Below are positions 2,498 through 61,603 of a DNA stretch of 64,000 bases, piece after piece. The position numbers and the translations under genes were made by a program. Source of the stretch: Isoetes taiwanensis (lineage: Eukaryota > Streptophyta > Lycopodiopsida > Isoetales > Isoetaceae); contig JAJEKV010000055.1 of assembly GCA_021234155.1 (NCBI GenBank), positions 1,851,090 through 1,915,089 on the forward strand. Direction: 5' to 3'. Within the stretch, counting starts at the first letter, position 1. Each line of letters begins with the position of its first letter. The notes beneath the pieces are model-generated. The model had not been told where the DNA came from. It saw only the letters and a program-made list of their open reading frames with translations, and made no database searches.

Positions 2498-4620
2498 TAG
2501 ATATCACCAATCTGGAAAACTTGACAAATCTGGAAAACTTGACGCTTTGAGCAGTAGCTTTGCTCAATCCTTAACCATAAACCACATGGAGGGATAAGTC
2601 CGGTTACCTGCAGTGGAACCAAATGCAAGTTAGCCTAAAGAGGGTAAATGCATAAGCCACTAACAGGTAAGCTAAAGACCCATCCGGCTTAACGCCCTTC
2701 ACCATTTAACTTTACGTTGAAACATGACATTTGAAAATTATGACTATAAATCATATTAGCATGTGAAAGTACATATGCACATGAGAGAGTCACTTAAGAA
2801 TTGGACGCAACATCAAGAAAGGCAATAGAAGGTGGAAAAGAAACACCAAATTCAGTGAACATATGAGTAAGGCAGAATATAAACAAGCATAAGTAAAAGA
2901 GATCCAAAAACTTGTCTATATTATTAACCATTTAAAGGGATAAGGAACCAAGGCGGGAATCAGGCAAAACTAATACTGCATAAGGGTCACAGGACTTTAC
3001 AACAGAAGCAGAGTTTGGCACTTAGAATTAGCTTAGACTAAATCCTTAAAACATGTAAACTAGCCTGTGGACATAGCACATCATATTACGAGAGGAATTA
3101 CAGTTAAAATTTTAGAACATAGACCATAAGTGATCAGACGGACACATAATAGAACAAATAAAATCTATCACACCACTAAGATGCTAGATGATCAAATAGA
3201 ACAAATGGATAGATCTTCAAATAGGGAATATCGTTATTATTTTGAGTAAAGGGAAAGGGCCCGTTAAATCACTCTGGGAGATTTAGAGCGGAGTTTAAAG
3301 AACTTACGGTCTAAATAAACTAGTTTGCAATAATCTATGGCATTGTAATGGGCTATACAGCAGAAATAAGCAGGCTAATTTTACAGCAGAATAACTTAAA
3401 AGGATCTATAGTACAGCTAGAATAGCTATCAGAAAATGGATTTAATTAATAATAGAATCCCCATAAGGGTGGCAGAATCTTATAAAAGCCAGATCTACAT
3501 AAGATCTACATAAGATGGTATCTAACTTGGTGGGAATTTGGTACAGCATAAGCCCTGTGGAAATGGCCAATAAAAAATAGTGGATCTATTCTTTAATGCA
3601 AGGAGCCCAGCAAAAATTAAGGATAAAAACCTGGTAACATGTTGCCTGCCTGATCGATTTGGTCTTGTATGGATGTGGCCGATTTTGCAGAAATAACCTT
3701 GGTGCCTCTGTGCTTCGCTATTCAGACTTGTCTACTTCTTTGCTTGTTAAACCTTTCTGAGCAGAGCTCCTTTCTTCTTCAAGAGCAAAATAAAGCACAA
3801 GGGCAGTGGAGAAAAATGGTCAGAAGCGAAGCATTTTAAGGGACCATATAAGCACTATCCCATTGTCTACACCAGCGTAGCATCTGTCCGTCTATTTACA
3901 GATTGTATAGGCCAGCTTGTGCAAGATAGACAGAATAGAAAGACATCCGCTGCCGCCGAGGTGCTGTTAGGTTAAGGGCGAACCCTAAACGAGGAAAAGG
4001 AAAAGCCTTAAGGAAATTTAGAAGCAAATACTTTTTGGTTTATTTAAAATGTATTATACAAGATATAGGGTAGAAGTTCGGTGCCCAATGGTTACAAAAT
4101 TTGGAAAAGATTTAAACTTGATACTCCTAGATATGAGGTCTTGCAGCAATCCAATATGAGGTCTATGCAGCTGGGACTTGGCATCCATGGGTTTGAAGAT
4201 GTTAACACCTTGTTTAAAGATGGGTTACATTTTCAACACAATAAATGAAAGTTAGTGAAAGTTAATGGGTACAATCCCCCTTCAAATGCTGGTACTGCTC
4301 AAAATTTTGTTTGTATCAGATGAAATCACATGTAGTTCAGAAAGCTTATTAGTGAAGCAAAGTTAATGAAAATGGCAATATAGGAATATTCGAACAAGGG
4401 AACAAGAGGAAATAGAATATTTTAGCTAAATTGGGGAATGGATAAGTTTCTCAATATTCAGCCAACAGGAAATAGAGGTCCAAGCAAGTTAGAAAGAAAG
4501 GACAACTACGTTGAGAATGCCAAGGCCCCTCATATTTGTATAGGACATGCGTCTCAGAACATCCATTGCTAGTACGGACCACTGAGGGCATGATTTTAAG
4601 AAGAATCAACAGTATATTAG
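2498..4620. other. AT-rich intergenic sequence, no gene seen
   Basis: No long open frame, no RNA gene and no recognisable element end. A few short direct repeats occur, for example AATCTGGAAAACTTGA twice near 2509-2541. The stretch ends in a run of A and T at 4625-4680. Confidence 0.6.
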
Positions 4621-7929: not shown

Positions 7930-8690
7930 TATATTATATATGTTATACCGTATTGAATGGATCAAGCCCTAATTTAAATGGCTGAGATCATCTGATTGAA
8001 ACTGAAGGCCGAGATTTATAGCACGACTTCCCACTGTCATGATTAGTCATGATTTGATCTCTTAAGGGAAAAGGAAAGGGGAGGAAAGGCATGGGTAAAA
8101 GGGAAAAGGGAAGCGAAAAAAGGGCATACGAAAAAGGGGAAGAGAAAAAGGACAAAGAAAGGGAAAAAGGGAAGGAAAAATGAAAAAAAAGAATAGAAAT
8201 AGAGAGGGAGAAAGGGCAACGGAAAAAGGGGAAGAAGAAAAGGGTGGGAAAAGGAGAAAAAAGGTAAGGGAAAAGGGTGGGAGGAAGGGAACGAACAAAG
8301 CACATGGGAAAAGGGGAAGGGAAAGGAAAGGAAAAAAAGAAAAAGGGAGATGGAAGGGGAAAAGGGAACCTGGAAAAGGGCAATGAGGCAAAAAGGGAAG
8401 GGGGAAAGGGCATGGAAAAAAAAAGAAGAGGGAAAGGGTGAAGAAAGAGGAAAAGAGAAACGAAAAGAGAGCATCAAAAAGAGGAAGGGAAAAGGTTAGA
8501 AAGAAACGGTGAGGAAAGAGGAGAAAGGAAGGGGAAAATAACATGGAAAAAGGGAAATCGAAAGGGAAAAAAGAAAAAGAGGGGAAAAAGGGAGATAAAA
8601 AGGCATCGAGAAAAGGGAAAGAGGGAAAGGGTGGGAAAAGGGAGGGGAAAAAGATGAACAGGAAAAGGGTGGGAAGAAGGGGACGAATAA

Positions 8691-9511
8691 AGCGCATGGA
8701 ATTTTTTTTTTTTTTTTTTGAGGGCTGACAAGCTTTATTCACCAACTAAAAACCGTGAGCAACATAAAATGCAAAGACAGATTATAACCCCAAAGTGGAC
8801 AAACCGGATCCAACCGGAAAGCACAACCACCGCCTATGCAAAAGAATGAATCAAGGTAAGTATGCAGATTAGTACTTTCTTCTCTTGATCAAGAGAAGAA
8901 CAATTGTAAGCCATAACAATTTTATTTTGCGCCCTCTTGAAGAACAATCTCATCTCGCAGTGATCTATGCCCTTAAAGATAAACAACCTCCTTCTCTTCT
9001 AGATTGACCATAAAAGCCACCACATGCGAGATGAAAAGCTCAAGCTTCCAAGTAGTTTGGGCCAAGCATCGATAGAGAGCAAGCAAAATTTGTCGGCTAG
9101 ATCTAGACGTGCCAAATAGGGTCAACAACCAAGGCCATGCCCGCCGGGCCGGGCCACACAAGAAAAAAAACAATGCTCAATACTCTCAACCCTTTGGTCG
9201 GGCATAAAGGACGAGAGCTCGAAATCCGATTATCCATTTTATGGACTAACCTCGTTGACTCGAGGCATCTATGGATCACTTGCCACCACAGAACTACTAC
9301 TTTGGGATGAAGCAACTTATCCCATACCCATATCCAAGCACTTTTCCATTGTGGTTGAGGGACCTGAAGATGCCACCTATTAGATGGAGGCAGGATTTCA
9401 GAATGCACAAGCAATATATACACAGAAGACACAAACCGCCCTGGCTGGATATCCTGATGGCAACCCCATACGACTACCTCAATCTGTGGACTAGAATCCT
9501 GTAGCGCATGG
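8691..9511 (-). mobile_element. 5'-truncated L1-like LINE inserted in the purine tract
   Basis: The insert begins at 8701 with a T run (poly(A) tail of a minus-strand element) and ends near 9502. A 9-bp target duplication, AGCGCATGG, flanks it at 8691-8699 and 9503-9511. Outside these points the purine tract resumes, so the insertion post-dates the tract. Confidence 0.85.
8973..9500 (-). pseudogene. Decayed LINE reverse-transcriptase C-terminus (zf-RVT region)
   Basis: Minus-strand translation of 9103-9500 gives a tryptophan-rich segment (WIWVWDKLLHPKVVVLWWQ) and then a short cysteine-containing stretch. This matches the order of the zf-RVT domain at the C-terminus of plant L1-like reverse transcriptases: a W/PKV.FLW entry segment, then a zinc-knuckle region. 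The frame continues at 8973-9173 with shifts. No polymerase motif is left, because the element is truncated. It is certainly non-functional. Confidence 0.65.
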
Positions 9512-10885
9512 GATGAGAGAAAGGAAAAGGAAAAAAAGAAAAAGGGAGATGGAAATGGGAAAAGAGAACCTAGAAAAAGGGCACGAGGAAAATGGCAAAA
9601 AGGAAAGGGGAAAGGGCATGCAAAAAAAGGGGAAGAGGGAAATGGTGAAGAATAGGGCATCGAAAAAAGGAAGGAAAAATGTTAGAAAGAAAAGGTAAGG
9701 AAAGAGAAGAAGGAAAGGGGAAAATAGCATTAGAAAAGGGACAGGGAAGGTGGAAAATAAAAAAAGAGGGAAAAAATGAAGATAAAAAGACACCGAGAAA
9801 AAGAAAAGAGGGAAAGGGTGGGAAAAGGAGGAAAAGGGAGGGGCAAAAGGGGAAAGGGAAAGGGAAAGGGTGGAGAGCAAAAGGAATGGAAAAAAAAAAA
9901 AGGAAGAGATGAAAAAAAGAAAAGGGCATGATAAAAAAGGGAAGAGGGAAAGGGTGAGGAAAGGAAAAAAAGGAAGGGAAAAAGAGCATGGGAAAGGGAG
10001 AAAAGGGAAAAATGGAAGAGGGAAAAGGCAGAGGAGGATGGAAAAAAAAAGAAAAGGGGCACATATTGGAGAAATGGGAATGGAAAAAAAGGCATAAGAG
10101 AAGGAAAAGGGAAACCGAAAATGAAAAAGGGACCGAGAAAAAAGGAAAGGGAAAAAGGGCAAGGAGAAAAGTGAAAAAATTGGGAAAGGGATGAAAAGGG
10201 AAGGGGAAGGAAAAAGAAAAATGGAAGTGGAAAAAAAGGGGGGGAAAGGAAGGGAAGGGAAAAAAGCACGAGGAAAAGGGGAAGAAAAATGGCAAAAGAG
10301 ATGGGAAAAAGAGCGGGCTTGGATAAAAGAGGAAGATGGTGGGGAAAGGAAAAATAAGGCCACATGAAAAAAGTGGGAAGAGAGAAGAAAAAAAGGGCAT
10401 GGGAAAAGGGAAAGAAAAAATGAAAAAAAGAAAAGGAAAAGGAAAATTAGAAAAAATGGAAGAGGCGGGAAAAAGATGAAAAGGGGAAGAGAAAAAAAAG
10501 CCCTATCGAGGGGAGAAAGGAAAATGGGAAGGGAAAGGGAAAGGGAAAGGGGGGAGGGAGAAAGGGAAGGGAAGGAGAGGGAGAAGGGGGCTAAAAAAAA
10601 AGAAAAAGGGGAGAAGGGAAAAAGATAACGTGTGAGAAAAATAAGAAAAAAATGAAAAGGAAAAAGGAAAGTGTGTAGGCTAATGAGGAAAAAAGGAAAA
10701 CACGGGATAGAGCAAAAAGCAAAGGAAAAGAAAAGGGTATTAAATGCACAAAAACCTTTTATAGCTCAACCACACTGGGCTTGGTTTCTATTATATGATT
10801 TATGAAAAGAAGTCTGGGCTGAATAGGTTTCCGTCCACACAGGCTCCCAAATTATGCCCAGCAACGCTGGGCACTATTACTAGTC

Positions 10886-12909
10886 TTATATTATAATGTT
10901 ATACCATCAGTCTTGGATTGGATTAAGCACTAATTTGAATGGCCGAGATCATCTAGGTGCATTCAAAGGCCGAGATTTCTCGCACAACTTCCTACCACCA
11001 TGATTGGTCTTATGGGAAAAAGGTAAAGGAAAGGGGGAAAAAGGAAAAAGGAAAAAGGAAAAAGGAGGAGGAAAGAGAGGATGTGAAGGGGCAAAAAGGC
11101 ACGGGAAAAGGGAAAAAAGAAAGAGGCAAAAGAGTGGGGATAAGAGAAGAGAAAAATGCATGGGAAAAGGGAAAGGGAAAGAAAAAATCAAAAGGGAAGG
11201 GGGGAAGGAATCTAAGAAAAGGGAATGAGGAAAAGGGAAGAGGTAAAGGGGAAAAGGGAAGGGGAAATGGCATAGGAAAAAGGGAAAGAATGGGAAAAAT
11301 GGTAAAGAATGGGAAAAGGAAGGAAAAAAAAGAGCATGGGAAAAGGAAAGGGAAAAAGAGCATGGGAAAGAGGAAAAAAAGGGAAAGGGTGAGAAAAGAC
11401 GAAAAGGGAAGGGAAAAATATCATGGGAAAGGAAAAGAAAGAGGGGAAGAGAAGGGAAAAGTGGCACTGAGAAAAGGAAAAGAGTGAAAAGTTGGAAAAA
11501 TGAGGGAAAAAGCGGGGAAAAGGGGGAAAAGGGGGGAAAGAAAAAGGATAAGGAGAAATAAAAAGGGAGGGGCAAAGGCAAAAATAGAACTTGGAAAAAG
11601 GGAAGAGGGAAATGAGAAAAGGGAAGGGGAAAAGGGCACGAAAAAATAGGGAAGAGGAAAAGGGCGAAGAAAGGGAAAAAAAGGAAGCGAAAAGAAGACA
11701 TGGAAAAAAGAAAAGGGGAAGAGGGAAAGGGTGGGGGAAAAGAGAAAAACGGGCATGAAAGAAAAGAAAAGAGAACAAATATGGGAAGGGAATGGAAAAA
11801 AGAAAGGAAGGAAGAAAGAGAAAAGGGGCATCGATAAAAGAGGAAGAGGGAAAGGATTGGGAAAGGAGGAAAACAGAAAGGAAAAAGTCCACCAGGAAAA
11901 TGAAAAGGGAAAAAGACTGAGAAAAGGAAAAGAGGGAAAGAGTCAAAAAAAGGAGGAAAAGAAGGGGGAAAGGGGAACAGGAGAAGGGTGAGGATCAAGG
12001 AATTGAAAAAGAGGAAGAGGAAAGGGAAAAGGGCACGGGAAAAAAGAAAAGAGGGAAAGGTGAGGAAAGGGGAAAAAGAGCATGGGAAAAGGAAAAGGAA
12101 AAGAAAAAAAGAGAAAGAGGAAAGGGAAGAGGAAAAGAGAAAAAGGGTGGGGAAAAGAGAAAAAGGGGCACATAGAAAAAGGTAGAGAAAAGGGAATGGA
12201 AAGAGGTATAAAGAAAGATAAAATGAAAAAAGGTGGAAAGGAAAATGAAAAGGGTCTGGGGAAAAGCGAAGGGTGGCTACGAAAGAATGAAAAGGGAAGG
12301 AAAAAAAAAAAAAAAGGAAAAAGAAAGGGGAAGCGAAGGGAAAAGCGGGCATGAGGGAAAAGGGGAGAGGAAATGGGAAAAAAGCGAGGAAAAGGGCAAG
12401 GGATAAAAAGGGAAGAGGATGGCGAAAAAAGGAAGAAAAGGGCACATGAAAATGTGAGGGAAAAGAAAGCAGCATTGATGCATGGGAAAAGGGAAAGTGA
12501 AAAGGAATGGGAAAAATAGGAAGGACGGGGAAATGATAAAAAGGGAAGAGAAAACTTTTGTCAAAAAAAAAGGAAGGGAAAGGGGAAAGGAAAGGGAAGA
12601 GAAGGGGATTTTTTTTTTTAAAAAAAAAGGGAGAGAAGGAAAAATAAGACGTGTAGGTGAAAAATGAGAAAAACGAGAAAAGGAAAAAGGAAAGTGTGTA
12701 GGAAAATGAGGAAAAAGAGAAATGCGGATAGAGCAAAGACAAAGGGAAATGAAAGGGTGTCGAATGCACAAAAACCTCTTAAAGCTCAGCAATGCTGGGC
12801 TTGGTTTCTATTATATTAGATTTATGAAAAGGAGTCTGAGCTGAGTAGATTTTCGTCCATACAAATTCCCAGCTTATGCCTAGCAACGCTGGGCACCATT
12901 ACTAGTCTA
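10886..12909 (+). repeat. Polypurine repeat, copy B
   Basis: The head at 10886-11010 matches 7930-8050 (GGCCGAGATCATCT, GGCCGAGATTTCT, CACCATGATTGG). The purine tract runs 11011-12765. The tail at 12766-12909 matches 10741-10885, including TGCTGGGCTTGGTTTCTATT and CAACGCTGGGCACC. The tract is over 1.7 kb with almost no pyrimidine apart from GCATGG-type interruptions and a short T run at 12609. The copy directly abuts copy A, making a tandem pair. Confidence 0.85.
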
Positions 12910-16705: not shown

Positions 16706-17789
16706 ATGATCTTGGCAGACCAAGATCGAGCACTGACCATTCCCTGTTAGGACTAACAGTAGACTTCCAGTCTTGGGAATAGCCACCCAAGCATGAACCT
16801 TGAAAATTGGGAAAAAAAATTTCCAATCTCTAGTGCAGCAAGTAGAAAAATGCTAAGTTAGTAAGAATTTTTAGTAAAACCCTAGAAATCTTGGCCCAAA
16901 AGGGATGACCCCTCACAGAGTGCGCCCAGACCAAATCTGTCATTCTCGGATTCGCCTCTCGCGCACTGTGTGAGTGGTCGGCCCATGTTGACCTAGATAG
17001 AGGCATAATTAATGTAATCTGATAGTGCAGGGCAGCTTAATCCTTAGATTAGAGCTAGGATTGCATGTTATAACACTAAGAAACACCTTGTAAACTGAAA
17101 ATTAGAGTAAAAAAGGGATGACCCCTCACAGAGTGCGCCCAGACCAAATCCGTCATTCTCGGATTCGCCTCTCGCGCACTGTGTGAGTGGTCGACCCATA
17201 TGTTGACCTAGATCGAGGCATAATTAGAGCAATCTGATAGCTCAGGGTAGCTTAGAGCTTGAATTTAAGCTAGGAATGTATGTTCTAACACTAAGAAACT
17301 GTTTATAAAACTAAAGTTAGAGACAAAGTAGTGACCACTCACAGAGTGCGCCCAGACCAAATCCGTCATTCTCGGATTAGCCTCTCACACACTGTGTGAG
17401 GGGTCAAAACTTTGAACCTTCATAACTTGAGTTATACAGCTCCAAATCGCCTAAAATTTGTTGCTTTAGGACCTTAAATTAGGCTAAAAATATTATAAAC
17501 CACCTCAAAATGACCAAAATAGCTTAAACCCTAAATTATGTCTTCCAAACTAGGGTTTATTTAGAAATAGAAGAAATAGCTTTTAGGGTACAAGGTTAGA
17601 GCCACAGAAGAGCAAAGGGCATGACTTTTTGAAGACATTGAACACCCAGGCGACGTACTGACAACATAAGGGAGGAGAGTGAAAAGACAGACCCAAGAGA
17701 AGAAACACTATGGCAAACACCTCTACCAACGAAGCGAGTAGTACAGGGCACAACTGGCCTATCAACAATCTTCATCGAATGGAAGACAT
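16706..17789 (+). mobile_element. Untranslated leader of the LTR 1 element, cut by the hAT insertion
   Basis: The leader carries three copies of a 64-bp hairpin motif (16911-16974, 17124-17187, 17337-17400) and then a segment from AGCTCCAAATCGCC (17433) that is repeated at 25264. It continues after the hAT element at 23675. No gag frame is recognisable in this part. Confidence 0.7.
16911..17400 (+). repeat. Three tandem leader hairpins, ~213 bp apart
   Basis: Each begins CCTCACAGAGTGCGC (first base varies) and ends GCGCACTGTGTGAG, which can pair. An inner AATCCG...CGGATT pair sits in between. The same motif occurs at 33374, 33567, 52867 and 53091, always downstream of an LTR or LTR-like segment. 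Confidence 0.8.
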
Positions 17790-18434
17790 CAGGGATAGGT
17801 TCAATATCAGATAATGCTTTTATCATTAATCGTATTTTTTCATTTGATACGGCACAAATTTGACGTTTAATATGTCAAAAATACGTCTAAAAAAATTTCC
17901 TACGGGCGGAAAAAAATTCATGTAGTTTAAAACAAGCTTTTCGCCGCTTAAAGCAAAATTTGTTTTCGCTTACGCGAAACTTTGCAAAGCATATTGGGGC
18001 ATTTTGCTAAGGGAAAAAAACTTTTTGCGCCACTGTTTGGTCTATTTTGTGCAGGTGAAATATTATATATAAGAAAAACGTGTTTAGCTCTAGAATTAAC
18101 GCTCGACGTTGACTACCAGGTCGAGTCCACATACTCCTTGGGAAACGGTCAGCCTTTGAGGTGTGGGTTTTTGCGTCCGGGGCCTGACGCCGGAATTGTG
18201 AAGTGAGATTCCTCCTTCACAGAGTTTTCCGACCTTGGGTTCCTACCCTGTTCCTTAGAGACCTATAGGTTCCTGTCCTTCACTCCTTACGTTCGAACGG
18301 GACGTCGATGTAACATATGCGTAGTGAGCTTGCTCCTTCGCGTATATAGACGTCGGCCTTTAGTTCGGACGATTAAGGAGTCTTTACCCTTTAGCATACC
18401 AGAGCAGAGACAGTAATTTTAGATAGCAGCAGGG

Positions 18435-21035
18435 ATGGCAGCTGGTCATGCATCTACATCAGGCGCCGCTGGCGGCCATGCATCTACATCCGGCGCCGCC
18501 GGCGGTCATGCATCATCGTCTAGGGGTGCGCGGCCATCGCGCGGTCATGGCAGGGCCACGGGGGTTGGAACAGCACGTGGAAGAATTATATGTCGAAATA
18601 CTGGTGGTCGAAAGAGAGGTCCTGAGTGGGGATTTGTGAAGGAATTTGGTCAGAATGAGTGGCAATGCGTATTTTGTGGGTACACGTCAATAAATGGATC
18701 CGCGACAAGAATACGAGCTCATCTTTTACGGGATCCTAAAATTGGGGTGCAAACATGTACGGCATCTGGCGACATAATGACAAGATGCACTTGAAATGTT
18801 GGGTCAAAAAAAAAAGAATAGCAAATAGAAGAACACGGTGAAGGGATAGCCAAGGACCTTCACCATGCCAAGAAGAAGAGATCAATTACACCACCCCTCC
18901 TGCGGCAATGCCAAATGTACCAACCAACGAGGGTGGACTAGGGTCGATAGGAGGGGTTAAGTACCTGGCTAAAAAAGAATGGCGAGACAATTGAGATAGT
19001 GGAAAGACGCACTAAGCAAATGTGAGGGTTGACCCACTGCTTAACATCAAGAATGGCCCAAAGAAGACGAATTGAAGGTTGTAGAGGCATTTTTATATGC
19101 CGGGTTGTCTCCACATATTTTGGAGCACAAAGCAATGAAAGAAGCCTTCCGTGAAGTTGCCAAAAGCGGGGGCCGGCTTTTAGATTGCCTTCATACAAAC
19201 ATGCCAATAACAAAATGGTGGATGAAATACACGGAAAATGGTCGAGAGGATGGAAATGAAGTTAAGTCGTTATCTTGAAGCCGGGCCAGCCTCACTAGTG
19301 ACCGATGGTTGGAGCAATGTAAACAAGGACCATCTTATAAATTTCATGATCGTGTATCCGGGGGCGGCATTCTTGAAAATCTGAGAAACCAAAACTCCAC
19401 CAAGTCACAGGAGATTGGATTTTCAAAAACAAAGGTCGTGATAGAGAGTTTTGGACCGAAGAGAATATTTCAGTCGTAATGGACAACGCGTCTAATTGTA
19501 AATTAGCGGGTGAATTGTTGGAGTCTCGAATTTCGTGATTGCACGCGACCAGTACCGCCAATGCCATTGCCGAGCTTATTGCTTTGAAGGACCCGTTTTC
19601 ACAAAGACACTTGGTTCAAAGATCCCATTCAAAAGGCCCGTCCGCTCGTGAAATTCATCACAAAGAAGGCAATTTCGCCATATACAAGTAATTGGCGTCG
19701 GAGGCCCTAGCACTCATGAATCCCGCCGACTCGGTTTGGTTCCAATTACATTTGTCTTGAAAGAGTGCTTAGGTGTCACGACTGATTATCTCGACCTTCA
19801 ACCATACAGAAGTTCTTTGAATGGGAGCGGAGGCGTAGGGAAAAAATGCTTCAAAACACCTAAGAACAAAGCTGCCACCCTTCGAAAATGCTTGGGGGAG
19901 ACATTTTGGAGAGGCGAAAGAATGTTGTCAAGTGCATGCAACCCGCTTTGTCATGCCATCAAAACCCTTGATTCTTCGAAGGCAAGCAATCGAAAGGTCT
20001 GGAGGTGTTGGCACTCCATTCAATCCTTTCTACAATGATGGCCCCAATGCACCCTTTGACAATGCTAAAAGCAGCGAAGATTGCTTAGAACTTCAATGAA
20101 CGATGGGAGAAGTCCTACAATGATCTTCATGGCGCCAAGACATGTCTTAGACCCACACAAACCCGCGATATGGACCAGCATACGATAAAGAAGTGATGGG
20201 TTCATTGAAGAAGGTTGCAAAAATGTTTTACCCCAATAGCTCTGGACTACAAAATTTTCATTGCCGAAAGTTAACGAATACCGTAACTTGAGTGGAAGGT
20301 GGGCGGATGAAGAGCTTCCACGATGCAATCGGAGAGTCACAAGAAGGAACCAAATATGGAATCTTATGCATGGTGGCAAAGCCCATGGACGTGTTACCGA
20401 TACGTTCTGTGCCCCTTGCAATGACTATCCTCTCATTGTCCTCCAATAGTGCAAGTGAGAGGAACTGGAGTGCTTATAAGTACATACATAGTGTGACACG
20501 AAATCGCCTCTTGCATAAGAAGGCTGACAAACTTGTATATAACTTCTCAAATTGGCGGCTCTTGAATCGCAACAGTGGTGCAGCCGTAGTTGATAAGCTA
20601 CAGTTTCCTTTCATGGATGCAAATTCTGAAGTGGAAGAGGACAACTTCGAAGACAGTGAGGATGAGCTGCTTGCTGTAAATGCCGCTAACTATGTTGATG
20701 AGGACATTCAACATACCCATTTTGTCGATGCCGAAGATGATTTAGACAAGAACATGTTCTCGGACGACTCAAACGACAGCGAAGATACAGAAGAGGAGTC
20801 TGATACAGAAAGGCCAGGTGCAAGTAATACAGGAGATCTGCTTGAGGACTTAATGGTACGTGACCCAGCGGACTCTCCAATGCCAATGACCCAGACAAAC
20901 AGGCAACGTGTCAGAAAAAACACATCTCGAGGACGTTGCAGTAAGGGAAAGGACCAGAGGAGGTTGAACCTAGGCCAGCATGCAGAAGAGGACGGAAGCC
21001 CAGATAATGAAACTGATGAAGACGGTGATGTCTAG
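18435..21035 (+). pseudogene. hAT transposase with BED zinc finger, frameshifted
   Basis: The first frame (ATG 18435 to 18794) has a low-complexity start (repeats of AGGHASTSGA) and then a BED-type finger (WQCVFCG near residues 73-79, with a downstream His in RIRAHLL). Next come AFLYAGLSPHIL at ~19085, the first catalytic region (LVTDGWSN) at ~19300, and VVMDNASNCKLAG at ~19475, as in the DUF659/hAT core. The intact last frame (20292-21035) contains the hAT dimerisation motif SASERNWS and then a long acidic tail. Frameshifts separate these blocks, so no full-length transposase can be read without changes. hAT transposases cut and paste DNA by recognising the terminal repeats. This copy is probably inactive. 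A poly(A)-signal-like GAATAAAAAG lies at 21122. Confidence 0.85.
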
Positions 21036-21234
21036 AAAGATGATGTGATGAGTACCCTCAGTCTATCTATTGTAACCGTGTATGAGGATGTTCAAACCGT
21101 ATTGTAACCATTTTGGCACTATGAATAAAAAGTAAAGTTTTTGTTACAAGTTTTTGTCTTCTATATATTTCGTCACCTTGTTTTATGTTTCTTTCATGTA
21201 TGATATTTCTTTCATGTCGACCGTAGTGCCCTAA

Positions 21235-21385
21235 GAACCTTCCTCGGATCAGACCCGTCTTGACTTCCGTTGCTGCTTGCCTCTTCGCATGCCACAGAAT
21301 CTTGCTGATGAGAAGTAATCTACGCACGCGGAGGGGCCAAACAGCGACGGACCAGCTGGGACGAATCTGATCCATCAGAAGGTTC
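21235..21385. ncRNA. Foldback hairpin 1 of the hAT-borne array (miRNA-precursor-like)
   Basis: The 5' arm starts GAACCTTC, then GGATCAGA and CGTTGCTGCTTG. The 3' arm, read in reverse complement, gives GAACCTTC, GGATCAGA and CGCTGTTTGG in the same order. About 60 nt pair imperfectly around a short loop. Confidence 0.6.
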
Positions 21386-21443
21386 ACAAGATACATGATC
21401 CACATCCTCCCAACCACTAGAACTTCGGTACGCCAAATTGGGC

Positions 21444-21579
21444 TTTGAATGCTATCAGGACCTATAATATGTACTCTATTCCCATGGGTGGCACATGCTC
21501 TGAATACCAGATGGGTTTGCATGGCATGTGCCACCCAAAGGAATGGAGGTACAAATTATAGGTCTTGATGGCATTCAAA
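21444..21579. ncRNA. Foldback hairpin 2 of the array
   Basis: The 5' arm TTTGAATGCTATCAGGACC... pairs with ...GGTCTTGATGGCATTCAAA. The stem is ~55 bp with about 85-90% pairing, and its inner end is GGGTGGCACATGC / GCATGTGCCACCC. Confidence 0.75.
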
Positions 21580-21614
21580 TGCCGATTTCGCCAGGATGAA
21601 TGAGACCAGAGTGC

Positions 21615-21734
21615 AAGCATCGAGACTTCCCAAACCTTGCTTTCACCCCTCTTTGGACAATGGAACTTAGCATGTAAACTAAGCTACATTGCCCAAAGAG
21701 GAGGTCAAAGAAAGATTGGGAAGTCTCGATGCTT
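21615..21734. ncRNA. Foldback hairpin 3 of the array
   Basis: AAGCATCGAGACTTCCCAA (21615-21633) pairs perfectly with TTGGGAAGTCTCGATGCTT (21716-21734). Further in, CCTCTTTGGACAATG faces CATTGCCCAAAGAGG, and CTTAG faces CTAAG around an 8-nt loop. Confidence 0.8.
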
Positions 21735-21767
21735 ACTCGTCAATCACTAACATCCAATGAACCCACA

Positions 21768-21890
21768 GACATCGAGACGTCCCAATCTTTGCTTTCCCCC
21801 GCCTCTTTGGACAATGGAACTTAGCATGTAAACTAAGCTACATTGCCCAAAGAGGCGGAAGGGAAGAAAAACGGGGAAGTCTCGATGCTT
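21768..21890. ncRNA. Foldback hairpin 4 of the array
   Basis: A paralogue of hairpin 3 with the same loop and inner stem (GCCTCTTTGGACAATG / CATTGCCCAAAGAGGC). The outer arm is ACATCGAGACGTCCC against GGGGAAGTCTCGATGC, with mismatches. Confidence 0.75.
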
Positions 21891-21935
21891 GAATTCAAGA
21901 GTCAAAGCATGCGGATTCCCAAATCGACCTCAGTG

Positions 21936-22057
21936 CAAGCATCGAGACTTCCCAAGCCTTGCTTTCACCCCTCTTTGGACGATGGAACTTAGCATGTAAA
22001 CTAAGCTACATTGCCCAAAGAGGAGGGGAAAGAAAGACTGGGAAGGTCTCGATGCTT
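21936..22057. ncRNA. Foldback hairpin 5 of the array
   Basis: A paralogue of hairpins 3 and 4. CAAGCATCGAGACTTCCCA pairs with TGGGAAGGTCTCGATGCTTG, with one bulged G. The inner stem and loop are conserved. Confidence 0.8.
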
Positions 22058-22092
22058 GAACTCATCAATCACTAACATCTAATGAACCCACA

Positions 22093-22378
22093 GAATCGCA
22101 AGCAACCACTAGGCCTTATATCCTCCGTGGCCACAATAAAAATAGAGTACTCAAAAACCTTGTAACCTCCTCTAGAACGAATGATTTTTGCTCCGGCCCC
22201 CATTTTGGGCGTCTTTGTGTAATATAACCTAGCAAAGTATCTAAGATACATTGACACAGAGACACCCAAAAGAGAGTCAGAGCAAAGCTCGCTCCTTCTA
22301 AAGGAGGTAACAAGAATTTCAAGAAGTCTATATTGTTTGCCACGGAGAATATAAAGCCTGGTGACCTGACAACGATTC
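22093..22378. ncRNA. Foldback hairpin 6 of the array (long, ~286 nt)
   Basis: The outer pair GAATCG/CGATTC is followed inward by CCTTATATCCTCCGTGGC facing GCCACGGAGAATATAAAG, CTTGTAACCTCCT facing AGGAGGTAACAAG, and TTTTGGGCGTCTTTGTGT facing ACACAGAGACACCCAAAA. The arms are ~125 nt with roughly 75-80% pairing. Confidence 0.75.
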
Positions 22379-22556
22379 AAGAGGGTCGCGATCTAATTCA
22401 GGCTTGACAGTTGTAGGCACCCTACTGAGTTTAACAAGTTCTCTCATTCTCTTCAACAAGTCTAATTTATGATCTGACCCAGTTACTGACTCCATTAGGA
22501 AACTCCCTGGCGGCACTCAACTGAACATATTGCATAAGACCACCTAGCAAAGTCAC

Positions 22557-22650
22557 GAATATTTAATGAAATATACGCCACTCCCTATATTAGTGTTGGA
22601 CTTTCGTCAACAACACCGTCAGAAAATAGGGTATATCTTATTAAATATTC
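22557..22650. ncRNA. Foldback hairpin 7 of the array
   Basis: GAATATTTAATGAAATATAC faces GTATATCTTATTAAATATTC. CCCTAT/ATAGGG and GTGTTG/CAACAC can pair nearer the loop. Confidence 0.65.
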
Positions 22651-22741
22651 TCCTGACCTTCCATAAGAGTACAACACCCACCTTTTAGCACCGCGTGACC
22701 GAAGCCAACAAGCAGCAGGAGAGGGCTATACACGTAAATGG

Positions 22742-22835
22742 GAGGTTGACCCTAGCAATCCTCGACATCAGCAATGAGACCCACCCTCGGCATGGCACAA
22801 TTCAATGTGGCACGCCAGGCGAGGGTCACTACCTC
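22742..22835. ncRNA. Foldback hairpin 8 of the array
   Basis: GAGGTTGACCCT faces AGGGTCACTACCTC on the outside. CCTCGGCATGGCACA faces TGTGGCACGCCAGGCGAGG on the inside, around a short loop at 22800. Confidence 0.55.
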
Positions 22836-23653
22836 AGCCAAGGATCACTCCGAACTAAAACCTAGTCTCTCTTAAAGAACTCCCTATCCTAACTGCTACT
22901 GTTGTCGATGAAAGGGTAGGCAACCAAATTTCTCTTTCTTATTTTTTTATTTTTATTTTTATTTCATTATTTTTTTTCCTTTTTTTATTGTTTCTGTTCT
23001 ATTGTTTTTTTTTCTTTGTTTTTCTTTATTTTTTTCACAAAAATCAGTCTGGATTCGACCATAGAACGAGACGCTCACCATCGTTACGCCCCTCAATGGA
23101 GGGGGGCAACAGGAGAGGGCCTCACTATGGAGGAACCCTAGACCTACAATAAAAAAAACAACAAAAAACTAACTAGGTTTGCCTAAAAACTAAGAAAAAA
23201 TGAAAAAAAAGGGAAAAGGGGCACAGGTTGTGAAGGAGGGCGCAGGTGGTTTACCTTCTTCTGCGCAAAAACAAATAAAATGCCTCCCAGATATATAAAG
23301 AAACGTTCAGTGGCGAAATCATTCGTTTTCGCTTTACGCTGAACCGGCCACAGTTGTTTAAACTTAAAAACAAATTTACGCGAACGAAAAAATTTTCGCA
23401 GCGAATATATCCGTTTAAACACCAAAAAAGTTTCGCGTAGTTTAACTTAAGACTTCGCTTCGCCGGTCGGAGGAGATTCGCGTTTAAAAATAAAAAATAA
23501 ACTGCTAAAAAAGTTCAAGCGAAGTTTAAACAGTAGGTTTCACCGACGCCAATTTTTCCCGCCGACGAAGTATTAAATACAAAAATGCGTATTTTTTCAA
23601 AAATACGTATTTTTGACTTTATAATCCTGAAAAAATAATTTCATCACGTCTGA
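22836..23653. other. 3' non-coding part of the hAT element
   Basis: A T-rich run (22930-23040) is followed by sequence with several TTTACGCG/CGCGAAAC-like motifs that recur in inverted orientation near the left end of the element (17940-17985). These are possible transposase-binding subterminal repeats. No coding frame. Confidence 0.5.
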
Positions 23654-23674
23654 GAACCTATCCCCGGAAGACAT

Positions 23675-24142
23675 ATCGCTTACACAATCGACCCCCAATT
23701 TTTGGTCCACAGTTGTTTTTTTGTTAGACGAAAAGCGTTGTTTTATGCTAAAACAACACCAAATATGGCCCCAAAAGTCCACGTGGCCTATTTATCCGGT
23801 TTGCACAAAGAGACAAGTGGTTTTTTAAGCGTGAAATTTCCATCGTAGGTCTTTTGGCGTAAAAATCCACGATAGAAAAAATTGACATGGTTTTTGTGAA
23901 TTTTTTGTCAACGTGTACATTTTCTTTTTTTGTTGTTTTTTACGGAACCATCGCGTTGTTTATCTTTAAAATAGCACGTGTAGGTTTTAATTTTACTACA
24001 CCTGAAAAACTAAATTACAACACTAAAAACACTACAAAGAAAAGAACATGTAGGAAATAGAAAATTGATGTTTTCAAGTGTTCTTTTTCGCAATATGGAC
24101 ATGTTGTTTCAAGTGTTGTTTTTGCAATTAAAAAAAAAAAAA
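23675..24142 (+). repeat. Right half of the repeat split by the hAT element, ending in poly(A)
   Basis: From the second GAAGACAT the sequence matches 25644-26104: CCAATTTTTGGTCCACAG, GTCCACGTGGCCTATTTATC, CTAAATTACAACACTAAAAA, and an end of CAATT plus an A run. Joined to 17433-17789 it forms a second copy of that repeat, more diverged than the one at 25.3 kb. Confidence 0.85.
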
Positions 24143-25263: not shown

Positions 25264-26104
25264 AGCTCCAAATCGCCTAAAATTTGTTGCTTTAGGACCT
25301 TTAAAGAGTCTAGAATCCATTTATGACCTTAAATTAGGCTAAAAATATTATAAACCACCTCAAAATGACCAAAATAGCTTAAACCCTAAATTATGTCTTC
25401 CAAACTAGGGTTTATTTAGAAATAGAAGAAATAGCTTTTAGGGTACAAGGTTAGAGCCACAGAAGAGCAAAGGGCATGACTTTTTGAAGACATTGAACAC
25501 CCAGGCGACGTACTGACAACATAAGGGAGGAGAGTGAAAAGACAGACCCAAGAGAGGAAACACTATGGCAAACACCTCTACCAACGAAGCGAGTAGTACA
25601 GGGCACAACTGGCCTATCAACAATCTCATCGAATGGAAGACATACGTTACACACTGACCCCAATTTTTGGTCCACAGTTTTTTTTAGTTGTACGAAAGCG
25701 TTGTTTTATGCCAAAAACAACACCAAAATGGCCCCAAAAGTCCACGTGGCCTATTTATCCGGATTTGCACAAAGAGACAGTGGTTTTTTGGCAGAAATTT
25801 CCCACTGTGGTCTTTTGGCAGAAAAATCCACGCATAGAAAAAATTGACATGGTTTTTGTGAATTTTTGTCAACGTGTACATTTTTCTTTCGCTGTTGTTT
25901 TTTGGCGGAACCATGCGTTGTTTATCTTTAAAATAGCACGTGTAGGTTTTAATTTTACTACACCTGAAAAACTAAATTACAACACTAAAAACACTACAAA
26001 GAAAAGAACACGTAGGAAATAGAAAATTGATGTTTTCAAGTGTTCTTTTTCGCAATATGGACATGTTGTTTCAAGTGTTGTTTTTGCAATTAAAAAAAAA
26101 AAAA
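25264..26104 (+). repeat. Uninterrupted copy of the leader/poly(A) repeat (empty site for the hAT)
   Basis: It begins AGCTCCAAATCGCC and matches 17433-17789 plus 23675-24142 nearly throughout, with an extra ~29 bp at 25302-25330. It ends in an A run. The single GAAGACAT at 25636-25643 is the unoccupied target. It may be a retroposed or rearranged part of an LTR-element transcript. No duplication at its own ends was found. Confidence 0.85.
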
Positions 26105-53780: not shown

Positions 53781-53935
53781 ATGGCCCGCACCAAACAAAC
53801 AGCCTGGGTTGTAGTGCCCCCTGACCATGTGAGCGCCCAAGAGCGGGCAGCTCAACAGAAGGCCCGTGAGGCTCAGGAGCGAGCCAGGCGGGAACAGGAG
53901 GAACAGGCCAACGTCGATGCCCAGGAGCGTCAGAT
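53781..53935 (+). pseudogene. Start of a gag-type protein beginning MARTKQTA, cut after ~52 codons
   Basis: The ATG follows the LTR leader and opens MARTKQTAWVVVPPDHV, then a charged helix rich in Gln, Glu, Arg and Ala (AQERAAQQKAREAQERAR and following), which looks like a coiled coil. The first eight residues equal those of histone H3 (the mature tail ARTKQTA includes K4). From residue 8 on, H3 similarity ends (Trp instead of Arg). At ~53936 the sequence runs into the integrase of an element on the opposite strand, so the rest of gag-pol is lost. The identity as gag rests on its place behind LTR, primer site and leader. Confidence 0.6.
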
Positions 53936-54481
53936 GGGCCCCACAAAGTCCATTCCCCATTTGCTGAAGGGAAGTGGCGTGGCGACCGGCGTCAACGGAA
54001 GAGCGTCATGGGCCATGGACTTTTCCACACGCTGACAGACGTCACACGTGCGAGCGTAAGCGTGGGCATCTTTGAAGAGCGTGGGCCAGAAATATCCTGC
54101 CAAGAGAATTTTGCGTGCCGTGGCGTCACCACTAAAATGACCGCCACCAAGCCCGTCATGGGCTTGTCGAACAATATCAGGCACCTCATGAGGGAGGACA
54201 CAACGACGAAGGACTATGTCTTTACCTCGTTTATATAGATGGCCTGCAACCATGGTGTCGTCACGGACCTCTCTGAGAAACTGACGGCGACGGGAGCGAA
54301 GCTTGTCTGGAGAGAGCGTCGGATCTTCTGGAGGAAGAGCACCAGTGAGAAGATATTGCTGAAAGTTGTGAAACCAATGGGGCGTGGCCGTGACCAGGAA
54401 CAATTGAGCGTCTGGAAAGGCATCAGAAACACCCGTGGAGGGATCATCCGTGTGGATGCGTGAAAGATAATCAGGCACCAC
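53936..54481 (-). pseudogene. Gypsy integrase N-terminal part
   Basis: Contains the HHCC zinc-binding region (AHDGLGGGHF, then CDVCQR), preceded by LYKRGKDIVLRRCV, and ends WGMDFVGPI at the beginning of the catalytic core. The first catalytic Asp is in MDFVG; the remaining Asp and Glu are lost in the truncation. Integrase joins the element's DNA copy to host DNA; this one cannot. Confidence 0.85.
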
Positions 54482-55298
54482 ATGAGACTTGCCTGCCTTA
54501 TGAACAATTTCGAAGGGAGCGAATTCTTGCAGAAGAAGGACCCAACGAGCAATTCTACCCGTTTGTTGATTAAATAAAGAAGAGCCTGATGATCAACAAA
54601 GAACTTGATCTGGCTACCCAACAAATAATGACGAAAACGTTGGACACAGAAAACTAAGCCCAAGGCTTCCCGTTCTGTGGCAGAGTAGTTGCATTCAGCA
54701 GGATTGAGTTTCCGGCTGGCATAGCGGATCGGTTTATCCGTGTGTTCATCATGAGCCTGAGAAAGAACAGCACCAATGGCAAAAGCGGAGACATCAACAT
54801 GAACGTGGAAGGGCTTGTCCCATTGAGCAGGAACAAGTATCGGGGCCTGAGTAAGTAACATCTTCAACTTCTGAAAAGCAGCTTCCGCTTGGGGATTCCA
54901 AGCCCAAGTGGATTCATCACCCGTGAGTTTATGAATGGGATCAGCGATAGCTGCAAGTCCAGGAATGAAGGTGGAATAGTAATTAACCTTACCCAGGAAG
55001 GAACGTGTCTCTTTGATATTAGATGGTGCTTGAGCCTTGAGTACGCAACTGATTTTAGCGGGATCCGTGGTGATTCCATCTTTATGACCACATGACCCAA
55101 AAGAACGCCCGAGGTGACGCAGAAAGTGCATTTCTCAGGATTGAGACTAATGCCAGATTCATCACATTTTTGAAAGACAAGCTCCAACTTTTCCAAGTGA
55201 TCATCCATGGAGCTGTAGGCTGAAAAATCGTCTTGAAAGATCTGGAGAAAAGGTTTATCCTTCATATAGTCGTGAAAGACAGAGAGCATGATGCGCTG
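54214..55298 (-). pseudogene. Gypsy reverse transcriptase (3' part) and RNase H
   Basis: Begins right at the LINE insertion. The polymerase motif is FQDDFSAYS (motif C, DD preserved). EKCTFCVTSGVLLGHVV follows as in gypsy thumb regions, then the RNase H module with DVSAFAIGAVLSQ, SATEREALGLVF and FFVDHQALLYL (catalytic D, E, D in place). A frameshift lies near 55080 and another near 54540. Confidence 0.9.
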
Positions 55299-55308
55299 AA
55301 AGGTTTGA

Positions 55309-57795
55309 AGGAGAGTTTGGGATGATCTTGGGGAGGACCTCCTTCATGTTTTCAGAGGGATTTGGCAGCATGAGAGCCTCCATCCTGCTCTCTCCACTGG
55401 TTTCATTGCACTTGTTCCAAAGGTTGACAAGCCGGAAGCAATTGAAGAGTGGCGTCCTATTGCTCTCACTAATACCACATACAAGCTCTTTGCCAAGCTC
55501 CTAGCCAGCATACTTAAGCCATTGCTCAGCAAATTCATTGAGCCTGAGCAATCTGCATTTCTTTCTGGAAGAAGTATTTTAGCCAACTACCTCTCGGCCT
55601 ACGAAGGACTTCATTGGGCAGAACAGAGCAAGCAAAAATGTATCATGATGAAGCTCGATTTTAAACGAGCCTTTGACACAGTCCGATGGGATGCTATTCG
55701 CAAGATAATGGGCAAGTTTGGGTTTGCCAACAAATTTATTGAGGTTGTCATGGGCCTCAACAAATCAGCCACTGCCTCCATCCTAATAAACGGCAGTCCT
55801 TCTCAGCTCTTTGATTTAAGAAAGGGGGTTAGACAAGGGTGCCCCCTGGCCCCCTACATCTTTATCCTTTTGACTAATGCGCTCACACTCCTAATCAAGA
55901 GTAAGATGCAAGCAGGTGAGATATAGGGCATCAGCATGCCAACCCAAGGATCTAAGCAGCTTTGTATCCAACAATTTGCTGACGACACCTTTTTCTTCCT
56001 GAATTATGAGAATGGAAGCATTGCGAACTGCCTTGCAACAATTCAGACTTTCAAAGACAAAGAATGTGTGTGAAATTAAATCCCAAAAGAGCTCCATCCT
56101 ATGGCCTCATGAGTTCCAGCCTCCCCCTCTTATTGCCAATCTTGGATATAAAATTATCAGAAAAGGCGAGCTTACCAAACTGCTTGGGCTGCCCCTAGCT
56201 ATGGGAGCCCTTCCGCAAGGCACTTGGGCAACTGTTCTTGACAAGCTAAAAAAGAGAATCAATATTTGGTCATGTAAAGGTCTCTCAACTGCTGGCAGAA
56301 TTACCATAGCCAACAGTGTACTTAGCAGCTCGCTTGTATACCTCTCTTCTATCCTTTTGGCTCCTAAATATATGTATCAAAGGATGCAGCAGTTCATACG
56401 GTCCTTTGTTTGGCAAGGTGCAGCAAAGATTGCATGGTCTGAAGTTTGCAAACCAAGAGCTTATGGGGGACTTGGAGGTAGAGACTTGCATAAACACTCT
56501 CAGGCTCTGGTCGGGAAACTCGCTTTGGAATGCTCTCAATGGTGAGGTATCCTTTGGCTCGATTTTATAAGGCACTTTTCTTAGTAAGGCCAGCCCAAAG
56601 TCCAAACCCTCTCTAAGTCTCTCTCAGACGATGTTATATTGATTTTAAGATAGGCTCAGGCACTTCGCAAGTAATGCGCAGGGTACTGGAAGCATGGCAG
56701 GATGTGAAGGACTATTTCAAACCCGCCCAAGCCCCATTGGAAGCTGGCAGATTGCCCATCTTTTGGAGCCCCATGACTAGTTATCAAGAGGATTGTCCCC
56801 TTGGCGCTTATGCACCCCGTGATATATGTAGAAAATGGGAAGCGGCTGGGGTTTTATGTATCTAAGTCATCTGGGACCCCGACCGGGCAAGAAATGGTGG
56901 TCCCGGACCCGACTCAAGAAAGCTATTGCGTGCACCAGCTCAGGCAAAATGGTCTACGGAAGATTATGCAAAGCAAGTTAATGGCCTAACTGAACTAATG
57001 GTAGTGAGGAGATCCGCTCCTAAATAACAGGGCATCTTATTCAGTCAGGGGGATCTACCAAGCCTTGCTTGACGATCTGCTACCGTGTGTGGCAAGCCAC
57101 ACAACTCTCACAAGCGTGGACCTAGCAAGGCAGCTCAAGAAATGTTGGTCTTCATATTGTACTAAGAAAGTACAGTTATTCATGTGGCTCACCGGCGCGC
57201 GGCCTCGCTTACTATGTCTTGGCTGCTACAGAGGAAAATTCAGCGCAGCACTAGCTGCTCTCTTCAATGTGGTGGGGCTGAAACTATTGAACACATGTTC
57301 TGCTCGAGAATCAGAGCTCTCTGGGATTGGGTAATTCCCTTGATTCACCTTGATGCATCACAACTTCAATGGCCAGGAATTGCAATGTTGCAGACCGATA
57401 AACTTGGCTACTCCCTCATTTGCATTGCCTTATGGGCAGTATGGAAACACAAAGCACAAAGGGTCCTTTGGCGAGCAGAGAATATCCATTGCCATGATAA
57501 AGAGCTCATTCAACCAAGCGGTAGCTCTAATGGCCATTGCCCACATTCGGAAGATGGGACATGCCTACGATAAAGCTATGGACAGGATTGGCACGGTTCA
57601 AGGCTTCCTTCACTTCTTCAAGTGTTCTTGGGCCAAGGATGGAGATTGCTGAACTATATTCATGCAAGAGAGCCTATTTCTAGCCCCATATGAGAGCAAG
57701 CCTTGCTCATGCCCTTTGGGGGCTTTTACATTCCATTTTTTTATCCTACTTTGTGTATTTTCCTTTCTTTAATTAATATAATTTAGCCTTGCCTT

Positions 57796-57835
<40 letters not shown>

Positions 57836-57840
57836 TTTGA
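55309..57840 (+). mobile_element. L1-like LINE inserted in the gypsy reverse transcriptase
   Basis: The 10-bp target duplication AAAGGTTTGA occurs at 55299-55308 and 57831-57840 (its first bases merge with the poly(A)). The A run is at 57797-57833. The element is 5' truncated: only reverse transcriptase fingers onward are present. Insertion direction is opposite to the gypsy. Confidence 0.92.
55330..57652 (+). pseudogene. LINE reverse transcriptase and C-terminal zinc knuckle
   Basis: The open frame includes FIALVPKVDKPEAIEEWRPI, QSAFLSGRSILAN, MKLDFKRAFDTVRW (motif A), GVRQGCPLAPYIF and, after one stop at 55924, QQFADDTFFF (FADD motif C at ~55978). A frameshift leads to the frame at 56006-56545 (KLLGLPLAMG, ..WSCKGLSTAGRITIANSVL). 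After further shifts the zf-RVT region follows at 57180-57330 (CSLQCGGAETIEHMFCSRIRA). The family copies LINE RNA into nicked target DNA. Several disruptions make this copy inactive. Confidence 0.9.
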
Positions 57841-58480
57841 TAAACCAAAGGGGACCACCTTGTAGGCAAAAGTGCCCCACGGGGTGGTGAAGGTAGTTTT
57901 GAGTTGATCTTCCTTCTTGATAGAAATTTGATTGTACCCAGAGAAACCATCCATGAAAGAGTACATCTCATGACCAGCAACTTCTTCAAGGACCTGGTCA
58001 GTGAAGGGAAGCGGAAAGTGATCACGCTCCGTAGCTTGATTGAGTTTTCTGTAGTCCACGCAAACGCGGATTTTACCATTGTGTTTGAGAGCAATGACGA
58101 TGGGGCTCACCCATTCAGAGTGTTTGACCTCATAAATCATGCCAGCAGCTAAGAGTTTGTCAATTTCGGCCTTGACGCGGTCACGGTAATTTGAGTTGAG
58201 CCTGTACTGTCGTTGCTAGATTGGGTGTGCATCGGGTTTGGTAGGAATGGTGAGTTCCCCCAACTCTTTTTTGATACCTCGAAGGTCTTTGTAGCTCCAA
58301 GCAAAAATATGTTTGAACTTCTTGAACATCCTCACAACACGTGCTTTATAGGTGGATGGAAGATTAGCAGCTAAGCGGACCGGTTGATTGTTACCAATGT
58401 CCACAATATCCACTTCTGGAGTTTGAATATGAGGAACAACCTCCGTGTCCTGAACCTGATGAGCAGGAGGTTGAAACATG
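57841..58480 (-). pseudogene. Gypsy reverse transcriptase, 5' part
   Basis: The frame at 58216-58479 includes the linker before the polymerase (YKDLRGI). The frame ending at 58140 contains WVSPIVIAL, RVCVDYRKLN, MDGFSGYNQI (motif A Asp) and KTTFTTPWGTFAYKVVPFGL. It then meets the poly(T) of the LINE. A stop separates the two frames. Confidence 0.9.
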
Positions 58481-58560
58481 ACAAGAGGAGCAGCATTTTG
58501 AGTAGTGAAGAAAAGAGGCTGCTGAGTGGCATCAAGGGTTGCTTCATGACAGCATTAACA

Positions 58561-59803: not shown

Positions 59804-59890
59804 AGGATTGGAGGTAGATGCAACTTGCTGAGGTCGCCGTTGTTGAGGGGCGGCCCGTGGTGGCTTCCCTCAAAACAGACGGGGCCTTGT

Positions 59891-61556: not shown

Positions 61557-61603
61557 GATGGAAAGAAAGGAAAAAGAAAAATCAGACCCGACAGCGGCGA
61601 CAG

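Follow-up and report, generated by a model that had tools for sequence, protein, structure and literature searches.

A hAT transposon family of Isoetes taiwanensis carries an array of foldback hairpins, plausibly a multi-hairpin small-RNA locus

Why does a hAT transposon of Isoetes taiwanensis hold a row of different foldback hairpins downstream of its transposase gene, and does that row belong to the element or to one copy of it? The copy in question lies in the window, i.e. the whole stretch of 64,000 nucleotides that was analysed, and its features are listed in Table 1. The original prediction had placed the hairpins inside an element bounded by a duplication and CAGGG-type termini, and this was borne out. 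The 8-bp perfect target-site duplication GAAGACAT flanks the element at positions 17782-17789 and 23667-23674, and the element ends in the short terminal inverted repeats starting with CAGGG that are typical of hAT transposons, with departures at the right termini of the window copy (CGGGG) and of the copy E12 (CATGG). Matching 8-bp duplications were found for the window copy and for the copies E10, E12 and E01. When joined, the flanks of the window element align to window positions 25445-25832 (93%, 399 columns), where GAAGACAT occurs once. This stretch is the paralogous empty site of the insertion, and because it shows the flanks in uninterrupted form, both the insertion and the borders assigned to it are secure. 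A MITE would be a short element with terminal repeats and a target duplication of its own; the hairpin array as a whole is enclosed in one larger hAT element. The empty site lies about 2 kb downstream of the insertion and in direct orientation; the insertion therefore seems to sit in a local duplication.

Table 1. Features of the hAT element and its foldbacks in the window.
Feature	Positions	Strand	Remarks
hAT element, internally deleted copy	17790-23666	+	5,877 bp; terminal inverted repeats CAGGGATAGGTTC / CGGGGATAGGTTC
Decayed hAT transposase gene	18423-21035	+	broken frames; DUF659 and C-terminal dimerisation region identified from other copies
Probable transposase 3' UTR and polyadenylation region	21036-21150	+	AATAAA or near; 28-row alignment; putative role
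Foldback H1	21235-21385	+	z -5.7 for 21241-21385
Foldback H2	21432-21591	+	67 pairs, one loop; z -14.3 for 21440-21584
Foldback H3 (H3-H5 family)	21615-21734	+	z -12.2
Foldback H4 (H3-H5 family)	21767-21890	+	z -10.1
Foldback H5 (H3-H5 family)	21937-22057	+	z -9.5
Foldback H6	22093-22378	+	107 pairs; z -13.8; loop region distantly related to H3-H5
Internal deletion junction	22394-22405	.	E03 5509 (L003) = 22394; E03 9752 = 22397
Foldback H7	22555-22652	+	z -6.0; right-end segment, outside the array in longer copies
Foldback H8, weak	22742-22835	+	z -2.8; 2 of 200 shuffles as stable; right-end segment
Further foldback, right-end segment	23047-23143	+	34 pairs, MFE -43.2, without shuffle control; beyond the range of the original prediction

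The transposase domains expected of a hAT element, DUF659 and the C-terminal dimerisation region, were recognised by Pfam above the cut-off in other copies, namely DUF659 in L007 (E 2e-25) and Dimer_Tnp_hAT in L010 (E 1.4e-8). The gene in the window is split over several frames, which corrects the original prediction, and its fragment scores 12.4 bits, below the cut-off. An N-terminal C-x2-C ... H pattern, which may be a BED zinc-finger motif, is visible, but the two N-terminal pieces gave no Pfam match. In an alignment of 28 rows, an AATAAA-like region precedes the array in most rows, and the probable 3' UTR and polyadenylation region in the window stops before the array. The motif CTATATAT occurs upstream of the array in many of the 28 rows, yet it is missing from at least six (L001, L002, L010, L025, L035, L036) and from the deleted copy L029; a promoter of the array is therefore not claimed.

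The stability of each foldback was compared with 200 dinucleotide shuffles of its sequence. Six strong foldbacks, H1-H6, span positions 21241-22378, and for each of them 0 of 200 shuffles were as stable. Plant MIRNA foldbacks are under about 300 nt long, with few mismatches and one terminal loop; H1-H6 measure 120-286 nt and have a single loop. Of the eight foldbacks originally predicted, folding thus confirmed seven as clear (H1-H7, z -5.7 to -14.3), whereas H8 is weak. The prediction that hairpins 3-5 are the only related ones stood in so far as H3-H5 form a family; it did not hold for H6, whose loop region at 22215-22254 (family D2) is 65-68% identical to them.

Six copies (E01, E03, E05, E07, E10 and E12) were extended rightwards. 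Perfect duplications delimit three of them, E10 (10,362 bp), E12 (11,217 bp) and E01 (15,158 bp), the last of which probably bears a nested insertion; for E03 and E07 the right end alone was found, and E05 had no matching right end. The longer copies of 10.4-11.2 kb keep a second gene to the right of the array, on the minus strand and convergent with the transposase gene. Pieces of it contain a kinase-like stretch (PF00069, E 1.2e-4, 22.0 bits versus 31.7 needed) with GSGTYGTVF, HMDLHPGNVLL and DWG, presumably kinase motifs, a coiled coil that visual inspection makes probable, and a RING finger (PF00097 exceeds the cut-off in L003, L007 and L010, PF13639 in L010). A gene with a kinase-like part, a coiled coil and a RING finger, facing the transposase, is thus carried by this hAT family (L003/L015, L007/L016, L010) and is possibly a captured host gene.

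The window copy is missing about 4.2 kb that are present in E03, the second gene included, and window positions 22397-23668 match E03 9752-11044 at 87%. In E03, the segment with H7 and H8 lies about 4.2 kb from the array, beyond the second gene. H7 and H8, originally counted as array members, adjoin the array through this deletion and so belong to the right-end segment. Where both genes are kept, their 3' ends flank the array on either side, and folding of five longer copies (all but E05) gave 5 to 9 hairpins with at least 28 pairs between the two genes. This position, together with the AATAAA-like region ahead of the array in most rows, would suit a structural barrier, that is, foldbacks that stop or process convergent read-through and spare the mRNAs of the transposase and the kinase-RING protein from forming silencing-triggering long double-stranded RNA. 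Several sequence families, each kept near-identical across subfamilies of the element, are more than a barrier would require, however. We know of no plant Pol II terminator in the form of a foldback array, and we consider such a role quite improbable.

The array and the transposase were each searched for in the genome (1,658,258,908 bases in 1,110 contigs). The array search gave at least 281 matches, a lower bound with 40 of 1,921 candidates scored, and in the roughly 8 kb fetched for each of 14 places chosen by their array, the transposase was found directly upstream in all 14. From the transposase search (69 of 2,389 candidates scored), 3.2 kb downstream of 16 places that were absent from the listed array matches, with identities of 63 to 91%, were examined. 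Array hairpins were present in 13 of these 16 copies, from both transposase subfamilies, including L036 with two H1 units only. The other three lack the array: in L029, a deletion fuses the transposase to the RING gene, L028 retains just a 57-base RING remnant, and L033 has nothing recognisable downstream of the transposase. Each of them seems to have undergone deletion or truncation. Genome-wide, an exact 23-mer from the H3-H5 arm was counted 431 times and its reversed control 0 times. One hAT family, with many copies and two transposase subfamilies, has the hairpin array as a regular part. That the transposon carries the array as cargo, as originally proposed, is upheld by both samples, which rule out a local accident in one copy; the search for copies without an array, which would have spoken for such an accident, turned up these three only.

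The transposase sequence divides the copies into two subfamilies, A and B. At the 3' end of the transposase, mean divergence is 0.246 between A and B, 0.164 within A and 0.127 within B, and in its middle part 0.144, 0.107 and 0.057, respectively. For the array, the corresponding values are 0.175, 0.162 and 0.161 (H1), 0.098, 0.120 and 0.071 (H2), 0.084, 0.086 and 0.089 (H3), 0.059, 0.056 and 0.061 (H6 left) and 0.084, 0.090 and 0.078 (H6 right), so that divergence between the subfamilies is about the same as within them; the unlabelled copies L023, L028 and L033 were left out of these comparisons, and L036 is only slightly closer to A than to B. On a maximum-likelihood tree of the transposase, 1 change suffices for the subfamily labels, and 0 of 500 shuffles got by with so few. 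On the hairpin trees the labels need 6 (H2), 9 (H3) and 8 (H6 right), values reached by 96, 335 and 278 of 500 shuffles of the A label; the changes forced by well-supported branches alone number 2, 4 and 2. One H3 sequence is identical between an A copy and a B copy, and in five B copies (L004, L006, L009, L032, L034) A-like sequence starts, as judged by eye, within the transposase 3' UTR. The number and order of the hairpins differ among copies. The spacers between hairpins are conserved too, and neither hairpins nor spacers track the transposase subfamilies. Between A and B, the transposase has a dN/dS of 0.08-0.19 at a dS of 0.50-0.84 (four comparisons), and synonymous sites of the RING gene are saturated in both comparisons made.

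Because the transposase tree separates A and B and the hairpin trees do not, an exchange of hairpins between the subfamilies is strongly suggested and would be the simplest reading. The best match per copy was used, a choice that may confuse paralogues arranged in tandem (H3-H5 and H6), and part of the mixing of A and B may therefore be paralogy. Purifying selection as the sole cause of array identity was rejected, given that divergence is alike within and between subfamilies and that copies with the same label fail to group together on the hairpin trees. As the spacers are conserved as well, the low divergence of the array may reflect exchange and not constraint.

VANDAL elements belong to another superfamily than hAT. 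Their noncoding tandem repeats, in the account that bears on this point, are bound by VANC proteins, which removes silencing (PMC10398659), and the Isoetes family resembles them in combining a DNA transposon, an accessory gene and fast-evolving noncoding repeats. By analogy, the foldbacks might be a binding platform recognised as DNA or RNA by the transposase or the kinase-RING protein. However, whereas the VANDAL repeats are described as tandem and protein-bound (PMC10398659), those of the Isoetes element are long palindromes, and their shared feature is long palindromy of different sequences, not one short motif. Furthermore, subfamilies whose RING genes are about 66% identical share the same hairpins. 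Of the four readings weighed here, we rate this one the least probable.

Observed variants of H1, H2, H3 and H6 fold better than versions with an equal number of random substitutions (mean z -0.97, -1.73, -1.38 and -1.13, respectively, with 77-96% of rows below 0; 31 of 31, 23 of 28, 48 of 50 and 21 of 21 rows were tested, those with fewer than three substitutions being dropped). Among all distinct stem substitutions, pair-keeping was 0.26-0.28 versus 0.25-0.31 expected, which equals chance, and stems were less changeable than unpaired sites in H2 and H3 only, not in H1 and H6. Pairing was kept in 50 of 110 stem changes seen in at least three loci versus 61 of 191 confined to a single locus (p 0.025), and pair-keeping changes on both sides made up 30 of the 110 versus 14 of the 191 (Fisher p 5e-6); the comparison leaves out changes seen in two loci, counts the two sides of a double change separately and draws on related rows. 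H3 opposes the trend (8 of 30 shared changes keep pairs versus 14 of 44), and shared changes avoid stems no more than single-locus changes do (p 0.29). On 39 rows, the covariation term contributed only -0.47 of -21.99 kcal/mol, and both-side changes affected 3 of 29 pairs. Conversion between the arms of a palindrome could mimic both-side changes. The alignments thus lend modest support to selection on pairing in the hairpins.

These patterns could also come from a selfish or neutral palindrome array, in which foldbacks without a function of their own stem from inverted duplications made when gap repair or replication of the element goes awry, grow and shrink in number by unequal exchange and are tolerated in intergenic space. 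The variable number and order of hairpins (5-9 in the five longer copies), the independence of hairpins and spacers from the transposase subfamilies, the chance-level pair-keeping among all distinct changes, the three deleted or truncated copies without an array and the target searches described below, which found none, would all be expected of such an array. Less expected are its presence in 13 of the 16 transposase-chosen copies from both subfamilies, the retention of several types (H1, H2, H3-H6) and the enrichment of shared stem changes for both-side compensation. We regard this origin as a possible one, second in probability to a function in small-RNA production.

Of 31 Rfam matches up to E 5 in positions 20800-23700, none reached the gathering score (MIR396 obtained 32.6 bits of the 80 needed), and a known miRNA family was rejected on this basis, although a new MIRNA gene need not match one. 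Two peptides read from the H6 arm were compared with Pfam, without a match, and with the PDB, where nothing fell below E 0.5, and a host-gene origin of the arms was rejected on these grounds. Against the element's own two genes (in E03, E07, E10 and E12), the best 21-mer matches had 4-7 mismatches, compared with 3-8 for shuffles (five single-base shuffles per test). H2 matched the transposase antisense strand with 4 mismatches in all four copies, while its 20 shuffles had 5-7; among the 128 tests tabulated, this match is suggestive at most. A zero-mismatch match of H1 in E03 proved to be array sequence left in the tested stretch and no target. Since nothing in the element's two genes clearly matches the arms, silencing of its own transposase is not the role that first suggests itself.

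Host silencing genes were checked at six of 65 Piwi-matching places, with DRM, CMT, MET, RDR, DCL, SGS3 and Pol IV/V left out, and no arm match beyond chance was obtained at these six loci (best E 0.08). In addition, seven cores of 21-23 nt, a minority of the possible registers, were searched in the whole genome with at most 2 mismatches and with patterns excluding the array flanks. Non-array places numbered 6 for the H3 3' arm (control 2) and, each with a control of 0, 8 for the H2 3' arm, 13 for the H6 3' arm, 5 for H1, 0 for the H6 5' arm, 2 for the H2 5' arm and 8 for the H3 base; no group of places in this search resembled a target gene family. Read from their letters, most of these places appear to be array derivatives. 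Four places, all from the search with the H6 3' arm, were fetched: L045 and L046 are pieces of the element or array, and L043 and L044 belong to a repeat that is 84% identical to H6 over 37 nt. The proposed aim of the hairpins at silencing factors or rival elements has so far gained no support from the six Piwi-matching loci, the element's own genes or the seven cores, which cover part of the possible targets.

The repeat of L043 and L044, whose surroundings are L047 and L048, occurs in at least two places and is distantly H6-like; L043 additionally matches over 193 nt at 68%, and L047 contains a 72-pair foldback at 2911-3095. Matches to the hAT transposase or RING protein within 8 kb around the L043/L044 repeat were limited to one at E 0.32.

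Weighing these data, we consider it most likely, with about an even chance of being right, that the array is a small-RNA locus of several hairpins, borne by the element and acting in trans; the neutral array, the barrier and the binding platform follow in this order. Transcripts of the array would start at its own promoter or come from one of the two genes by read-through, the foldbacks would be cut by Dicer-like enzymes into 21-24-nt RNAs, and these would act in trans. We favour this reading because the array is present at the same place throughout the family, with 431 exact 23-mer copies, because its strong single-loop foldbacks are of plant-precursor size with z down to -14, and because variants fold better than random and shared stem changes are enriched for both-side compensation. 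The subfamily labels, whose changes number 1 for the transposase tree and 6-9 for the three hairpin trees, were counted in its favour as well. The target searches without a hit and the chance level of pair-keeping over all substitutions argue against it, as do stems of H1 and H6 no less variable than unpaired sites and shared changes in H3 that do not favour pairing. Production of small RNAs from the array is plausible, judging by its structure. For the congener Isoetes sinensis, an obvious 24-nt small-RNA peak is described (PMC5569507). In maize, miRNA-like structures in genes and transposons are reported to be matched by a more diverse set of small RNAs (PMC10760457). An extended form of this reading, which we think unlikely, combines the small-RNA cassette reshuffled between subfamilies with the kinase-RING protein encoded head-on to it into a counter-defence module against host silencing. 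If this were true, one element would deliver several trans-acting small RNAs and an enzyme.

Transposons with a single miRNA directed against host silencing are already known in rice. There, CACTA transposons carry one precursor family, that of miR820, for which the target OsDRM2 has been shown, and the precursor stem still resembles a DRM2 intron (Nosaka et al. 2012, PMC3459959). The two cases have in common a DNA transposon whose copies have spread together with a foldback precursor, a putative one in Isoetes, and for rice an arms race with host silencing was proposed (PMC3459959). In contrast to miR820 CACTA, the Isoetes hAT element has a row of several foldback types, known from sequence alone, and its hairpins do not follow the transposase subfamilies. 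In Arabidopsis, hAT and Mutator MITEs are given as the main source of MITE-derived MIR genes, an angiosperm precedent for foldbacks from hAT-type elements becoming small-RNA precursors (PMC10004981). Such precursors, in that account, derive from short elements with terminal repeats, whereas those of Isoetes are placed between the two genes of an element of 6-11 kb. The maize structures are likewise strong local foldbacks inside transposons and correlate with small RNAs and methylation; they were predicted genome-wide, and the abstract describes no dedicated array such as that of the Isoetes element (PMC10760457). The original statement that no hAT family with such an array has been described agrees with the open-access literature, in which we found none, most subscription papers being outside that scope. 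By having several different foldbacks as standing cargo, apparently exchanged between subfamilies, this hAT family would extend the rice case to a cassette of many hairpins in an early lineage of vascular plants, and this can be tested with existing small-RNA data from a congener. Moreover, the several hundred hairpin copies constitute a natural series for how long foldbacks are kept, copied and processed.

Elsewhere in the window, a long low-complexity tract at 7988-12807 has several open minus-strand frames rich in F, P, S and L and, judged from the translations, is likely a repeat rather than genes. The frames at 53930-61730 are broken by stops and, by the same kind of evidence, appear retrotransposon-like.
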